Source of the DNA: an uncultured Halomicronema sp.
GTDB lineage: Bacteria > Cyanobacteriota > Cyanobacteriia > Phormidesmidales > Phormidesmidaceae
Length of the DNA stretch: 42,322 nt
NCBI GenBank assembly: GCA_937899725.1
Contig: CALCCA010000105.1
Location: forward strand, 1-42,322
Direction of reading: 5' to 3'
The notes under the pieces were generated by a model. That model ran no database searches and was not told the DNA's origin. It worked only from the letters and a program-made list of their open reading frames with translations. Shown here in pieces: positions 12,359-17,520 of this stretch (its first letter is position 1; each line of letters opens with the position of its first letter). Position numbers and translations under genes: made by a program.

Positions 12359-13870
12359 ATGGATTTGCAGAGCTTGCTAACGCAGATGAGTCAAGCCGGG
12401 GTGACGCCCGCAATCGCCCTGCCGACTCATGCCGCTTTATCGCAACCGGTGAAACGGCTCTGCACGAACTCTCAAGCCTGCCAGCCCGGTGATCTGTTTA
12501 TCGGCATGCCCGGTACGCGGGTGGATGGCGGCGAGTTTTGGCCTGGCTCGATCGCAGCGGGGGCGATCGCCGCCTTGGTCTCGCCTCAGGCTTACCAAAA
12601 CCGCCCGCCTGAGCAGCATCACCCCGAGGCGCTGGTGCTGCCGTTCGACGATATGGCGATCGCCTGTGCTGAGGCGGCCACCGGATTTTATGACACGCCG
12701 GGGCAGGCCATGCAGCTGGTCGGCGTCACCGGCACCAATGGCAAAACCACTACGACACACCTAATCGAAGCGCTGCTCCAGCAGGCCGATCAGCCTACCG
12801 GTCTGTTGGGCACGCTCTACGCGCGCTGGCCCGGCTACGAAACCGTTGCCGTGCATACCACGCCCTTTGCCGTCGATTTGCAGGCCGATTTGGCCGCTGC
12901 GCGCGAGGCGGGCTGTCGCTCGCTGGTAATGGAGGTCAGCTCCCACGCGCTGGCGCAAAAGCGGGTTTGGGGCTGTCCCTTTGCAGTGAGCGTATTCACC
13001 AACCTCACCCAAGATCATTTGGATTTTCATGAGACGATGGCGGCCTATTTTGAGGCCAAGGCGCTGCTGTTTAACGACGACTATCTGCAGGGCCGCGCCG
13101 TCATCAACCAAGACGATGACTATGGTCAGAGGCTATTAGAGCGAGTCGGACAAAAAGGCTGGAGCTACAGCGTCGAAAATACCACCGCCGACCTCTACAC
13201 GTCGGAGCTAATCTACGGGGCCAGCGGCGTCAGCGGTCAGCTGCACACGCCCCAGGGCAGCGCCTCGTTTTCGCTGCCGCTGGTGGGTCAGTTCAACCTG
13301 TCGAATATGCTGGCAGCGGTGGGGGCAGCACTGCATTTGGGCGTCACGCTCGATCAGGTGACGGCCTGCTTGCCCCAGTTTGGCGGCGTGCCCGGTCGCA
13401 TGGAGCGGGTGGTGGTGAGTCCGGAGCAAGCGGTGAGTGTGATTGTGGACTACGCCCACACGCCCGACAGTCTGCAAAATGCTCTGACGGCAGCGCGGCC
13501 CTTTGTTACGGGACGGCTGATTTGCGTATTTGGCTGCGGCGGCGATCGCGATCGCACCAAGCGCCCCAAAATGGGCAAAATCGCTTACGACCTGGCCGAC
13601 ATCGCGATCGCCACGTCCGACAATCCTCGCACCGAAGACCCCCAGCGAATTTTGGCCGATGTGGTGGCGGGCATTCCCGTCACGCTGCCAGCGGAGCAGG
13701 TAGTCTGCGATCGCGCAGAGGCCATCCGCGTGGCGATCGCCCAGGCAGCACCCGGCGATTGTGTGCTCATCGCCGGTAAAGGCCACGAAGATTATCAAAT
13801 TCTCGGCACCGAAAAGATTCACTTCGACGATCGCGAACAGGCCCGCGAGGCCCTAGCCAACTGCCTCTAG
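12359..13870 (+). CDS. murE: UDP-MurNAc-L-Ala-D-Glu:meso-diaminopimelate ligase
   Basis: The 503-residue Mur ligase has an N-terminal UDP-binding domain, the central ATP loop GVTGTNGKTTTTHL, LVMEVSSHALAQKRV, TNLTQDHLDFH and the C-terminal domain with VDYAHTPDSLQNAL and VFGCGGDRDRTKRPKMG. TSDNPRTEDP contains the DNPR signature selecting meso-diaminopimelate over lysine, and GKGHEDYQI closes the active site. It adds the third residue of the peptidoglycan stem peptide. I chose the ATG at 12359, spaced correctly from GAGAGG; the GTG at 12350 overlaps that site. The stop is TAG, showing TAG is a normal stop here. Confidence 0.95.
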   Translation: MDLQSLLTQMSQAGVTPAIALPTHAALSQPVKRLCTNSQACQPGDLFIGMPGTRVDGGEFWPGSIAAGAIAALVSPQAYQNRPPEQHHPEALVLPFDDMAIACAEAATGFYDTPGQAMQLVGVTGTNGKTTTTHLIEALLQQADQPTGLLGTLYARWPGYETVAVHTTPFAVDLQADLAAAREAGCRSLVMEVSSHALAQKRVWGCPFAVSVFTNLTQDHLDFHETMAAYFEAKALLFNDDYLQGRAVINQDDDYGQRLLERVGQKGWSYSVENTTADLYTSELIYGASGVSGQLHTPQGSASFSLPLVGQFNLSNMLAAVGAALHLGVTLDQVTACLPQFGGVPGRMERVVVSPEQAVSVIVDYAHTPDSLQNALTAARPFVTGRLICVFGCGGDRDRTKRPKMGKIAYDLADIAIATSDNPRTEDPQRILADVVAGIPVTLPAEQVVCDRAEAIRVAIAQAAPGDCVLIAGKGHEDYQILGTEKIHFDDREQAREALANCL

Positions 13871-13937
13871 CAATCTCAGGATCGGTCAACCTGCCGTCCA
13901 AAGCGCCCTCCCGTTAACTTCTACTGGGTATCTCCCC

Positions 13938-14435
13938 ATGGCTAAAGCGCCCCCTGCTATTCTTAAATCCGTTTCCGTCAGCCTGCCCTTTGGCATCGGC
14001 TCGGCCTCGTGGGAAGCCGACCCCACGGAGCAAAATGCCGCCTGGGAACTGTACGTCGAACTGGTAACCCGAGTCGCGGTGCAGTCTTTGAGCGCCGAGC
14101 ATGGCACTGTGCGCGAAGCGATGAACTCGCTCTACAGCTTGTTTGGCTCGACTCGTGAAATTTTGCGGAAGGCGGGACCAAAGGTGGGTGCGGCCTCTAA
14201 TTCGGTGGGGGGCATTGCGATCGCGGTCCTTAACCGGGGGCTACGGCCTTTTTTGTCGAAGTGGCATCCGTTGTTGCAGGCTTGGGAGGCGAAGCGGGCG
14301 ATCGAGGTGAGCCCGCAAGCGCATGAAAAAGCCTGGGAGCAAGAGCCGATTTTGCGTCGCGACTTGGAAGCGCTGCGCGCTGATTTGGCGGCTTATTCGG
14401 AAGCGCTGGCCAAGATCTCTGGCGTTGAAGATTGA
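13938..14435 (+). CDS. Conserved hypothetical protein (165 aa) with RPFLxxWHPLL motif
   Basis: A mainly helical, soluble-looking protein. Distinct blocks are AAWELYVELVTRVAVQ, SLYSLFGSTREILRKAGP, AIAVLNRGLRPFLSKWHPLL and a C-terminal helix of ALRADLAAYSEALAKISG. I recall similar proteins in varied bacteria, including actinomycetes, with the same WELYVELVTR and RPFLxxWHP blocks, but I know no function. The start ATG follows a short gap after murE, and the stop TGA overlaps the next gene's TTG start. It therefore heads a likely operon with the two small downstream genes. Confidence 0.75.
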   Translation: MAKAPPAILKSVSVSLPFGIGSASWEADPTEQNAAWELYVELVTRVAVQSLSAEHGTVREAMNSLYSLFGSTREILRKAGPKVGAASNSVGGIAIAVLNRGLRPFLSKWHPLLQAWEAKRAIEVSPQAHEKAWEQEPILRRDLEALRADLAAYSEALAKISGVED

Positions 14436-14686
14436 AGACAACTCCCTATTTTAAACAGAAGTTGCTGGAGCGACCAGAAATCAAACGAGAGTGGTGCGAT
14501 CGCGTCGTTGCAGCGCCGATTAAACGCACTCAACAAGCCAACGGGCGGCTGAGTATCTGGGGCCAGATTCCAGAATTTGGCGATCGCGTGCTTCGAGTCA
14601 TTATCTTGGAAGATGGAGAGACGCTACACAATGCGTACTTTGACCGCAACTTCGGATCCCGATTACGTAGAGGTCTAGAACCGTGA
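14432..14686 (+). CDS. Small protein (84 aa), DUF4258-like, partner of DUF2283 gene
   Basis: It starts at TTG (14432), overlapping the previous stop by four bases, and ends in TGA overlapping the next gene's GTG by four bases, so all three are translationally coupled. MKTTPYFKQKLLERPEIKRE is followed by WCDRVVAAPIKRTQQANGR, IWGQIPEFGDRVLRVIILED and a terminal HNAYFDRNF. This resembles small DUF4258-type proteins (compact beta-sheet folds, some RelE/BrnT-like) commonly encoded just before DUF2283 proteins. A toxin-like role is inference only. Confidence 0.7.
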   Translation: MKTTPYFKQKLLERPEIKREWCDRVVAAPIKRTQQANGRLSIWGQIPEFGDRVLRVIILEDGETLHNAYFDRNFGSRLRRGLEP

Positions 14687-14898
14687 AAGTTCGATATTTT
14701 TCAGAAACGGACACGCTGTCGATTCGGCTGAATGACCGCCCCAGTCTCGAATCAGCAGAAATTGCAACCGATGTTGTGGTTGATTTTGATGCCATGGGCG
14801 GCGTGGTGGGCCTGGAAATTGACCTGGCTTCCTCTAAAGTTGATCTCCAAAATTTGGACTTGCAAGGATTGCTAATTCCAGAGTCTGTTTCAAAATAA
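14683..14898 (+). CDS. DUF2283 family protein (71 aa)
   Basis: MKVRYFSETDTLSIRLNDRP, then TDVVVDFDAMGGVVGLEIDLAS: this is the standard DUF2283 (YuzE-like) sequence, with a conserved D-T-L in the first strand pair and VDFDxxGxVVGLEI in the second. The length is typical. GTG is the start, overlapping the upstream TGA by four bases. Such proteins are widespread as second genes of small two-gene units with a DUF4258-like partner and are suspected antitoxins, though this is not proven. Confidence 0.88.
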   Translation: MKVRYFSETDTLSIRLNDRPSLESAEIATDVVVDFDAMGGVVGLEIDLASSKVDLQNLDLQGLLIPESVSK

Positions 14899-14899
14899 T

Positions 14900-14927
14900 C
14901 ATCAGCGCCCCAGATAGAAGGCTGATG
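14900..14927 (+). promoter_or_regulatory. Inverted repeat covering the transposase start codon
   Basis: CATCAGC (14900-14906) is perfectly complementary to GCTGATG (14921-14927), which contains the ATG start at 14925. The likely ribosome-binding purines (AGAAGG) lie in or next to the loop. In mRNA this hairpin would hide the first start codon; a second ATG at 14931 lies just outside. Restricting translation this way is common for transposases; here it is inferred from sequence alone. Confidence 0.45.
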
Positions 14928-15695
14928 CTGATGAGACCGCAACGTGAACTCACGCCAGGCTACTGCTATCACGTCACCACTCGATGTAATAACCGAGAAT
15001 TTCGGCTGACGCGCTTTGAATGTCGAGAACTCTTGCTATCCGCAATTAAGCAGTGTCGTCAGAAATTTAGCTTAACGATGTACGGCCTCTGCATCATGAG
15101 CAATCACGTACACTACTTGCTTAAACCCAACAAGGCTACAGACCTACCCAAAATCATGCACTGGCTCAACTGGTATACCGCCATGAGCTTTAATCGCCTG
15201 CTGCACCGCACCGGCCACTTTTGGGAAAAGCGATACCACAGTACCGGCTTTCCGATGACCGACCATCGGCGCGCCCTCAACACGTTGCGCTACATTCATG
15301 CCAATCCTCAAGCTGCCAACATGCAGCGGGGGTGGTTCTACGATTTCAGCAATTACGGCACTTACGACCGCCTCACTGACGATGGCATTACCCAATGGCA
15401 TCCAGCGTTTCTCGCTTTGGGCGCAACCTTAGACCTGTGCGTTAAGGCGTATCGTCAGCTGTGCAAAAGATATCAGCCGCAGTCCAAGCCCAAGCGCCAG
15501 AGCCATTGGGGCAACCAAAAACTTGCTGGCTTACGGCTCAAGATGAAAGTCAAGCAGGTTAGCCCAGGACAAAAGAGTCTCTGGCAAACCTGGAACGCAC
15601 CTTTGGATGACGTTGAAGCCGTGGCCAAAAAGTTTGTATTAGCCAATTGCCTGAACCCCGAAATTGCGGCCCTGCAATTTGCGGACACGACCTGA
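14925..15695 (+). CDS. REP-associated tyrosine transposase (RAYT, Y1_Tnp/IS200-like)
   Basis: The 256-residue protein has the Y1 transposase core. GYCYHVTTRCNNREFRL, the HUH metal site in IMSNHVHYLL (His-Val-His), WLNWYTAMSFNRLLHRTGHFWEKRYHS with the likely nucleophilic Tyr in WYTAMSFN, and ALNTLRYIHANPQAA are all present. The sequence after HANP is longer than in IS200 TnpA, as usual for RAYTs. These single-copy enzymes nick and join single-stranded REP hairpins and are usually domesticated rather than part of a full insertion sequence. I see no IS ends flanking it. Start ATG at 14925 or 14931. Confidence 0.9.
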   Translation: MLMRPQRELTPGYCYHVTTRCNNREFRLTRFECRELLLSAIKQCRQKFSLTMYGLCIMSNHVHYLLKPNKATDLPKIMHWLNWYTAMSFNRLLHRTGHFWEKRYHSTGFPMTDHRRALNTLRYIHANPQAANMQRGWFYDFSNYGTYDRLTDDGITQWHPAFLALGATLDLCVKAYRQLCKRYQPQSKPKRQSHWGNQKLAGLRLKMKVKQVSPGQKSLWQTWNAPLDDVEAVAKKFVLANCLNPEIAALQFADTT

Positions 15696-15783
15696 CCGAC
15701 GGTGCCAGGTAACAGATCGCCGAAACACCTAAAAACCCGTGCAGAGGCAGTCGGCAATAATTCTTGAAACCAGGCTGAAGCGC

Positions 15784-16833
15784 TTATTTGCTACAGTTTA
15801 CAAGTCTGGATGCGAGAGAAGAGACCCACACCACACCCCCCCCACCCACCACCTCCGGAAATTCTCCGCGAGGAGAAAATTTGGGGTCGGCTTTGAGTTC
15901 GCTGGTTTTGTAGTATCGACTGGCATCGGCAGGCTTCCAGCCCACGTCGATACAAAATTGATCCCATCTTTTGCCGGATGATGTCGGGCTGCCGTGTTTC
16001 TGCCAGATGGCTTTCTGTACGCTAAAGCCGAAGTGTCCCTTACTGTACTTTGTCCACAGGCTGTCAATCGTTTTCAGGTCAGCACATGGAAAGTTCTGCA
16101 GTTCGTCGGGGCTAAACCAGTCTCCTGATTCTTTGCCCACCGCCCGAATCATCACTTTGTAGGTTTCTTTATCCGCGTCTCGCCATTTGCCCTCTCTAAG
16201 TAAGTCTCGCAAACGCGTATAGTCAATGCCCTTCTCAGAGCTTAAGTCATCGGGTACTGCAGCTCTCGGCAGCGGTTTCTCAACTGCTGACTGCTGGGTT
16301 TTCAGTCGTTCAAGTTCTTGTCGCACAGCAGCGAGTTCTGCTGCCACATTCGTACTCGGCTTGGTCTCTGATGCCACTGTTTGAGTTTGAATGACCTCAG
16401 CTGTCCCCAACGCGTCATTAGGTCTTTGGCCCGTAATGCCCCAAATCAGCTGAACCGTCGGATCGGGGGTTTGCAGCCGATAATCAACCCAGTGAAAACC
16501 TTCTAAAAATATTGGCAAACTTGGTACTTTTGAGGTCGATGGCAGGAGTACGGGAACAACCGGCGATCCTTGGTTTACAAATGCTCGAATGTACGCACGC
16601 ATTTCTCGCTTTTGCCAAGGCCCCAATCCAGCTTTTCCAACAAATACAGCAACGCACTTGATCTGTCTAATTTGCTCTTCTAAAACCTCTTGCCAATCTA
16701 CTCCAGGACGCAACTCCCAAATATCGAGCCAAGGCCTGATATTGTTTTGCCGCAGCTGTTGCGCAATTTCGATGACGGCAGGCTTATCTTCGCTGTTGTG
16801 ACACAGAAAAACGTCAAACTGCTGCTCCGTCAT
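15784..16833 (-). CDS. TIR domain-GUN4 domain fusion protein
   Basis: The 349 residues split into three parts. TIR domain (about 4-135): FDVFLCHNSEDKPAVIEIA, then PWLDIWELRPGVDWQEVLEE with candidate catalytic Glu40 in WEL, and VAVFVGKAGLGPW. Linker (about 140-200) with a short coiled coil (AAELAAVRQELERLKTQ). GUN4 domain (204 to about 325): YTRLRDLLREGKWRDADKET, FPCADLKTIDSLWTKYSKG and HFGFSVQKAIW. Bacterial TIR domains cleave NAD+ or make cyclic ADP-ribose signals. GUN4 binds porphyrins and activates Mg-chelatase. The pairing suggests a porphyrin- or light-stress-triggered NADase or signalling enzyme, which is inference. The last 20 residues are glycine-rich and encoded by an 8-C run (15836-15843). 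Confidence 0.9.
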   Translation of the reverse strand: MTEQQFDVFLCHNSEDKPAVIEIAQQLRQNNIRPWLDIWELRPGVDWQEVLEEQIRQIKCVAVFVGKAGLGPWQKREMRAYIRAFVNQGSPVVPVLLPSTSKVPSLPIFLEGFHWVDYRLQTPDPTVQLIWGITGQRPNDALGTAEVIQTQTVASETKPSTNVAAELAAVRQELERLKTQQSAVEKPLPRAAVPDDLSSEKGIDYTRLRDLLREGKWRDADKETYKVMIRAVGKESGDWFSPDELQNFPCADLKTIDSLWTKYSKGHFGFSVQKAIWQKHGSPTSSGKRWDQFCIDVGWKPADASRYYKTSELKADPKFSPRGEFPEVVGGGGVVWVSSLASRLVNCSK

Positions 16834-16920
16834 CTGCTCAGCGCTCCATCAATTCCCTCCAGTCTACGCAAAAAGCTTGAATAATTCTCTGTGCTCAACG
16901 ACACCTCAATGAATTCAACC

Positions 16921-16955
16921 GTAGGGTGCGTTTGCTTGGCAGCAACGCACCCTAC
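16921..16955. repeat. REP-like palindrome with GTAG/CTAC ends
   Basis: GTAGGGTGCGTT (16921-16932) and AACGCACCCTAC (16944-16955) are exact inverse complements around an 11-base loop. The outermost four bases are GTAG/CTAC. A GTAG tetranucleotide beside the hairpin is the recognition feature of REP elements used by RAYT transposases in enterobacteria. The GTAGGGTGCGTT...AACGCACC core is familiar as a dispersed palindrome in many bacterial genomes. It lies between the TIR-GUN4 start and the stop of the upstream gene, and could also act as a terminator, though no T run follows. Confidence 0.7.
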
Positions 16956-16974
16956 GGCTGGCGTCGTTAGCGGA

Positions 16975-17400
16975 TTAGCGAAACTCGCCGCCAAAGCCGA
17001 TCGAGGTTCTGCCCATCGCCTCATAGACCGTGATGCCTAGCGGCAAATCGACATTGCCATTGTCATCAATAAACTGCTCAAAAAAGCTCAAATCAACCAA
17101 ATCGCCGATGTCGGGGGTGTCATCTTCGTCGTCATTGTGGTCGGTGTTATTGATGTTGCTCGCCACGGTGCGCAACAAATCAGGACTGTAGGTCGCCTCG
17201 GGCTGCACCGACGCGCTGACGCCTGCTACCGGCAGCGCTTTGGTCTGGTCGGGCAGGGCTTCCGCTGAAATGTCTGGCGAGTCTAACGGCAACAAATCCG
17301 CTGCGGTGCCCGTCGCTTGAGCTTGGGCCGATGCGCCTAGGGCCGAGAGTGAGACGGCTGATCCGACGGTAATCAAGGCGACTTTACTAGAAGACTTCAT
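16975..17400 (-). CDS. Exported hypothetical protein with signal peptide (141 aa)
   Basis: The N terminus (MKSSSKVALITVGSAVSLSA, then LGASAQAQA) is a classic Sec signal peptide with an Ala-x-Ala cleavage site near residue 28. The mature part is acidic (NNTDHNDDEDDTPDIGD) with a more structured C-terminal stretch (LSFFEQFIDDNGNVDLPLGI, then TVYEAMGRTSIGFGGEF). The acidic DHNDDEDD run might bind divalent cations; this is only a composition argument. I recognise no family. Probably periplasmic or cell-surface. It is divergent from the DUF389 gene. Confidence 0.65.
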   Translation of the reverse strand: MKSSSKVALITVGSAVSLSALGASAQAQATGTAADLLPLDSPDISAEALPDQTKALPVAGVSASVQPEATYSPDLLRTVASNINNTDHNDDEDDTPDIGDLVDLSFFEQFIDDNGNVDLPLGITVYEAMGRTSIGFGGEFR

Positions 17401-17520
17401 TGACTAAGACCCATAGATGGTTAGTTGAGCTGGCCCAGCATTTGGAACCGCTTGCCGGGGCGGGCTTGGGTCAAAACTGAGGCCGCACTTAACCTTCCGG
17501 TGGGAACAATTTCTATCGGG

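Follow-up and report, generated by a model that had tools for sequence, protein, structure and literature searches.

The TIR-GUN4 gene described here lies in a stretch of 42,322 nucleotides (the window) from an uncultured Halomicronema sp., and it is rather likely to be one of many cyanobacterial genes for effector-GUN4 proteins in which the C-terminal tip is subject to targeted variation. Comparison of close relatives shows that the flanks of this tip stay alike while the tract separating the GUN4 core from a downstream DNA box is wholly replaced. Judged by alignment, the tail is conserved as DNA and not as protein. We read the tail module as one that diversifies the recognition tip of cyanobacterial conflict proteins; no template for it was detected. 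Features of the locus are listed in Table 1.

Table 1. Features of the TIR-GUN4 locus, in window coordinates.
Feature	Position	Strand	Basis or remark
RAYT-type HUH (Y1) transposase, 256 aa	14925..15695	+	Y1_Tnp; NHVH and YIHANP intact
Second conserved motif of the 3' element (GTTTCGGCGATCTGTTACCTGGCACC region)	15701..15729	-	Alignment of 19 copies
TIR-GUN4 gene	15784..16833	-	Intact ORF, 349 aa
DNA box CTCTTCTCTCGCATCCAGACTTGTAAACTGTAG	15791..15823	-	Sequence conserved; all three frames used among relatives
G/T tract, 32 nt	15824..15855	-	Coding strand 72% G, 25% T, 3% A
GUN4 core, residues 199-326, last residues GEFP	15856..16239	-	Pfam, structure match and alignment
Interdomain predicted helix, residues 163-182	16288..16347	-	AlphaFold2 model
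TIR domain, residues 8-120	16474..16812	-	Pfam TIR_2, E 2.5e-25
E77 codon, likely catalytic Glu	16603-16605	-	AbTIR alignment and 8-protein alignment

The original prediction was of a TIR domain joined to GUN4 in one protein, and this is borne out by the uninterrupted reading frame, by Pfam matches to TIR_2 and to GUN4 (the latter over residues 199-340, E 7.9e-35) and by an AlphaFold2 model (mean pLDDT 80.8, pTM 0.53) that matches solved structures of both folds. The linker proposed as a coiled coil is predicted as a helix between the domains. PADLOC labelled the protein as the anti-phage kinase PD-T4-6. This label was rejected, as the best match spans the GUN4 part only (profile positions 301-448 of 450), and no kinase domain was found in the window protein by Pfam scan. 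A second TIR is encoded elsewhere in the genome (contig C4:8644-9096) in a 236-aa frame; it is 58% identical, the match being confined to the TIR part. Upstream of the TIR-GUN4 start, at 16914-16960, lies an inverted repeat, GTAGGGTGCGTT...AACGCACCCTAC, and the sole Rfam match in a scan of 13800-17500 was to a microRNA, below the gathering score, at this same repeat.

The last 12 residues of the window protein (SSLASRLVNCSK) are one of three readings of the DNA box. Related genes end in sequences of the SSLASRLVNC, LLSHPDL or LFSRAETCKL types, which are the same DNA read in three frames. Within the host's order the box pattern gave 60 matches in 34 of 63 genomes, and the reversed control none; across the phylum it matched in 66 of 386 genomes, the reversed control in one. 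The box occurs once in its own genome at up to 3 mismatches, and a search of IMG/VR for exact matches found none. We assembled a set of 132 distinct copies, consisting of all 60 from the order and 72 from part of the other phylum matches. A GUN4 domain ends no more than 260 nt upstream of the box in 116 of these copies. Of the 16 boxes that lack a GUN4 match, three are no more than 110 nt from a contig end, three have a remnant detectable by tblastn, and ten have sufficient upstream sequence in which tblastn found no remnant; ten of the 16 were inspected by eye. Of 115 boxes, 107 are followed by stops in all three frames within 60 nt, compared with 34 after one shuffle of each, a count in which two of the stops are part of the search pattern and the third lies outside it. 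The second conserved motif of the 3' element sits immediately past the stop of the convergent RAYT gene. No conserved hairpin or other structure was found in the 3' element among 11 aligned copies (12 named copies were submitted). Two of the ten boxes without a remnant have unusual neighbors, their genes named from translation. At L133 the box lies just past a putative membrane-transporter gene without GUN4, which suggests movement of the element, and at L220 a kinase-like gene, seemingly cut within its catalytic domain, is joined to tract and box, an arrangement that looks as if a deletion had extended back from the box.

The tract upstream of the box occupies the place of the LxNxLR motif of true GUN4 and is hypervariable among relatives. 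Its length ranges from 22 to 149 nt, with a median of 53 among the 108 copies that stop in the box region. The composition (A.154, C.10, G.419, T.326) is unlike that of the upstream sequence (A.292, C.183, G.276, T.248), and the bias is uniform along the tract. It is more pronounced within the order (A.11, C.087; 47 copies) than outside it (A.185, C.109; 61 copies). In 111 of 116 copies the GUN4 frame enters the box without meeting a stop, compared with 55.4 expected when each tract is shuffled; in 108 of them a stop follows no more than 60 nt from the box start, and in three a later one. The other two frames of the 108 are stop-free in only 112 of 216 cases. Two of the five closed GUN4 frames belong to second boxes of double-box loci. 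The box itself is entered in all three frames (40/38/30 among the 108 copies; chi-square p 0.46). With the GUN4 frame open and the box frame free, the tails look translated and kept open, their sequence being free to vary. Of the tracts with ordinary base composition, two were searched for a phage donor; none was found for L232, and weak pieces only for L114.

After a pre-filter for shared 8-mers and for 70% upstream identity, 294 pairs of tracts were left, and each comparison involves either genomes of different species or paralogs. In the 57 pairs with 80-90% upstream identity, tracts scored.402 compared with.409 for shuffled tracts, while the box and 3' flank (100 nt) scored.878. The 227 pairs with 70-80% upstream identity gave much the same picture (tracts.407, shuffled.411). 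The 10 pairs at 90% upstream identity or above scored.454 compared with.382, in a set that includes two double-box loci paired with themselves as well as the pair L233/L234. In the pair L233/L235, upstream sequence (.95) and box plus flank (.98) are nearly the same and the tracts, 38 and 70 nt long, are unrelated (.39; shuffled.34). Similarly, neighboring paralogs at L182 in one genome share 85% of their upstream sequence and 99% of box and flank, and their tracts are unrelated. Turnover of the tract does not appear to be constant, since L239 and L240, from two genomes, carry an identical tract, which adjoins a stop-free RAYT frame, and the tracts of L233 and L234 are 92% alike.

Could the tail simply be an unimportant, fast-drifting C-terminus, in which slippage at G/T runs and the footprints of RAYT-element insertions produce the variation? 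We consider this unlikely, at perhaps one chance among several. Consistent with it are the G runs in the tracts, the longest of which reach 10, the tandem double boxes found at one GUN4 gene each at L201 (70 nt apart) and L210 (51 nt apart), the box beside a non-GUN4 gene at L133, and the recurrence of 8-mers of a gene's own box in 4 of 108 tracts, compared with a mean of 0.8 and a maximum of 3 in 100 shuffles. (8-mers from the GUN4 end recur in tracts in 4 of 108, compared with 1.7 when shuffled.) Such drift fits poorly, however, with a GUN4 frame that is open twice as often as expected and with a box and flank conserved across the phylum. Moreover, the tracts of close relatives are wholly different and are not length variants of a simple repeat, and internal 9-mer repeats stand near the shuffled level (10 of 108, compared with a shuffled mean of 6.7).

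Downstream of the TIR-GUN4 gene and convergent with it is the RAYT gene, the sole match of its family in the genome (E <= 1e-3). It scores 72.1 bits against the curated REP_Tyr_transpos family, for which the cut-off is 80, and the HUH and catalytic Tyr motifs are present in 17 of 18 RAYT loci checked, that of the window included. A convergent RAYT gene or fragment lies beside 27 of the 60 boxes in the order, and in 11 of these 27 loci the end of the RAYT match falls 129-131 nt from the box start. The other 33 show none, four of them having less than 700 nt of downstream sequence. Outside the order, 7 of 48 box rows have a RAYT no more than 350 nt away and the remaining 41 show none, one locus being counted twice. 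The two elements tend to occur in the same genomes: in a hand tally over the GUN4-bearing genomes of the class, with family f20 left out, 27 of 31 genomes with a RAYT carry the box, compared with 39 of 98 without (Fisher p 3e-6, uncorrected for kinship).

We also fetched 20 box-less RAYT loci, part of those listed, of which 17 belong to the family and three are distant. Eleven of the 17 family loci, none of which has a box of up to 3 mismatches alongside, face a convergent GUN4 gene no more than 900 nt away; the other six have no GUN4 gene adjacent, and none of the three distant RAYTs is convergent with GUN4. This convergence was seen for 10 of 11 RAYT matches that reach query residue 244 or beyond and for 1 of 6 shorter ones. 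RAYT matches were found in three plasmid records. Two are convergent with a GUN4 protein, in one case an AAA_35-GUN4 protein and in the other a GUN4 that adjoins a MoxR ATPase gene, on what is, by its equal record length, probably the plasmid of locus L244; in the third, no gene is annotated under the RAYT match and the stretch contains no GUN4-named product. Over all loci, the median A+C of the tract is.19 beside a complete RAYT (n=18) compared with.25 for the others (n=79; p 0.013), a difference that is not seen inside the order (n=14 compared with 24, p 0.26).

Two small genes lie on the same strand as the RAYT gene of the window. The first (13938-14435) encodes a 165-aa protein with no family match above cut-off, and relatives 71-75% identical to it are found at three other GUN4-box loci (L050, L105 and L139), making it a possible recurrent partner of such loci. 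The second (14432-14686), which overlaps the end of the first, encodes an 84-aa protein with no family match and one relative (L119).

From this arrangement we infer that the RAYT may be the diversifying agent. Under such a scheme, which is less certain than the recognition role of the tail, the RAYT-type HUH endonuclease encoded convergently, or a trans-acting relative, would nick the box element, and the tract would then be resynthesized without a template. By comparison of copies, the tract is kept open in the GUN4 frame and may enter the box in any of the three frames, each of which the box region provides with a stop. It is conceivable, and offered tentatively, that RAYT-type endonuclease and box together constitute a template-free diversification that gives new tails to proteins of NLR, TIR, kinase and caspase types. 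A similarly speculative analogy is that the process might resemble, in effect, the junctional diversity of antibody genes, placed here at the former GUN4 ligand site.

The tail is carried by proteins with a variety of effectors. A domain scan of 84 of the 108 open ORFs, with the window copy substituted for L041, identified GUN4 in 84, kinase in 32, NACHT in 20, TIR_2 in 19 and caspase in 6, overlaps being possible. The idea that GUN4 serves as the sensor half of the protein is supported, since GUN4 has a C-terminal, sensor-like place in a conflict-type protein and the same GUN4 plus tail is found on kinases, NACHT proteins, TIR proteins and caspases. Of 8 other TIR relatives scanned, 2 have an FGE-sulfatase domain instead of GUN4 at the C-terminal place, a domain that the available text of Kaur et al. 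2020 (PMC7159879) relates to domains of diversity-generating systems.

What the sensor might bind is a separate question. The window GUN4 resembles true GUN4 up to GEFP, and thereafter it has a tail of different sequence. In the alignment the true GUN4 of the same genome (L001) reads GHLP-LTNQLRG and the Synechocystis chain (Sll0558) GHLP-LLNQLRG, where LxNxLR corresponds to L209-R214 and N211 lies inside the motif. The window protein reads GEFP-EVVGGGGVVWVSSLASRLVNCSK, with EVVGGG where the L001 ortholog has LTNQLR, and LxNxLR is absent from it. Y308 aligns with the aromatic W192/F191 position, in a single alignment with gaps adjacent. In the available text of Rockwell & Lagarias 2023 (PMC10156173), one substitution in the conserved LxNxLR ablates bilin binding by Chlamydomonas GUN4, and no member of a paralog clade keeps the key Asn.

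The original prediction held that porphyrin is sensed by GUN4, and Kaur et al. 2020 propose much the same; GUN4 would bind porphyrin or bilin and gate the TIR enzyme. We regard this as improbable, more so than drift of the C-terminus. The GUN4 fold is matched, Y308 is aligned with W192, and loss of the key Asn need not abolish porphyrin binding by a GUN4, to judge from the N219G mutant, which loses bilin binding and retains porphyrin binding in the available text of the 2023 study (PMC10156173). On the other hand, LxNxLR is missing, the Asn is reportedly lost throughout the paralog clade, and the segment at the ligand site is hypervariable among relatives, which is a poor fit to a single fixed ligand. 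Alignment therefore leaves the porphyrin-sensing reading of the window GUN4 weakened. Neither the fusion nor the sensor role of GUN4 in a conflict protein, the latter suggested in the original prediction as possibly new, is a novelty: the available text of Kaur et al. 2020 (PMC7159879) describes single polypeptides that join GUN4 to kinases, caspases, trypsin and TIR, and it proposes tetrapyrrole-dependent allosteric control for GUN4 conflict proteins.

We favor instead a tail that varies in a targeted way. Occupying the place of the ligand segment of true GUN4, it probably provides a recognition surface particular to each protein. A ligand from an invader or from stress, bound at the tail, would then switch on the N-terminal effector, and for a TIR effector the outcome would be NAD+ cleavage or synthesis of a signal by way of E77. 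This residue is not the one first proposed. E40, initially named as the catalytic Glu, lies opposite a Thr in the AbTIR alignment and varies among eight aligned TIR proteins, the window's own included, whereas W73 and E77 (WxxxE) are invariant in all eight and align with W-TNY-E of AbTIR. The Glu of WxxxE presumably corresponds to the catalytic residues E208 of AbTIR and E642 of SARM1, and the catalytic Glu of the window TIR is probably E77, not E40.

Diversity-generating retroelements (DGRs) alter adenines, and with substitutions only, so that length and frame are kept; the tract here, in contrast to such adenine-directed change, is G/T-rich. Rewriting of the tract by a DGR that draws on a distant template is very improbable, because no second copy of box or tract was found (both the box and the 30-nt core of the window tract are single in the genome at up to 3 mismatches, with no template repeat seen, and among tracts of ordinary composition L232 matches only itself and short pieces at E 0.145 or worse in its own host genome and L112 only itself) and because neither length (22-149 nt) nor frame (40/38/30) is kept. 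Speaking for a DGR are four RVT_1 loci in the genome, every one of them on other contigs, and the diversification of putative conflict-protein sensors by DGRs in multicellular bacteria, cyanobacteria among them, reported in the available text of two studies (PMC10907252, PMC7517822). No RVT_1 match was found on the contig of the window. A 366-aa reverse transcriptase is encoded elsewhere in the genome (contig C112:97779-98420, L260); its best NCBIfam match is of the group II intron type, below all cut-offs.

If our reading is right, cyanobacteria possess a targeted protein-diversifying system, its template not found, that is aimed at the ends of immune-type sensors. It could help to account for the abundance of effector-borne GUN4 domains in these genomes, and it would provide a function for a RAYT family whose role is otherwise unresolved. 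The available text of PMC6006769 states that the function of class 2 RAYT proteins is not yet formally elucidated. The RAYT/TnpA-REP proteins treated there share the HUH and Tyr motifs with the protein described here, of which the genome has one copy. Known RAYTs are associated with many dispersed REP palindromes, whereas the element here is a box marking the 3' ends of GUN4 genes. A search for multicopy palindromic REP sequences, covering the box element, found the box single in the genome and no conserved hairpin in its 11 aligned copies.

GUN4 orthologs (Synechocystis Sll0558; PDB 1y6i, 7e2t) have the core fold in common with the window protein, and they keep LxNxLR and the C-terminal part that follows, both of which are replaced in the window protein. 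The GUN4 conflict proteins of Kaur et al. (2020, PMC7159879; 2021, PMC8195603) are alike in the fusion of GUN4 to effectors, with TIR included in the 2020 paper. Their available text proposes tetrapyrrole sensing or small-molecule binding, and no hypervariable tail, DNA box or RAYT partner appears in it. We found no description of the tail module in the literature searched, which included no preprints and few subscription papers, its texts being available in part. Like the tail module, DGRs bring about targeted variation of C-terminal sensors in cyanobacteria and other multicellular bacteria (PMC10907252, PMC7517822, as far as their available text extends); the tail module differs from them in having no template repeat that we could find and no reverse transcriptase match on its contig, and in varying in length and frame. 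We rate the tail module as the new element at this locus, rather than the fusion, while targeted sensor variation as such is already known from DGRs.
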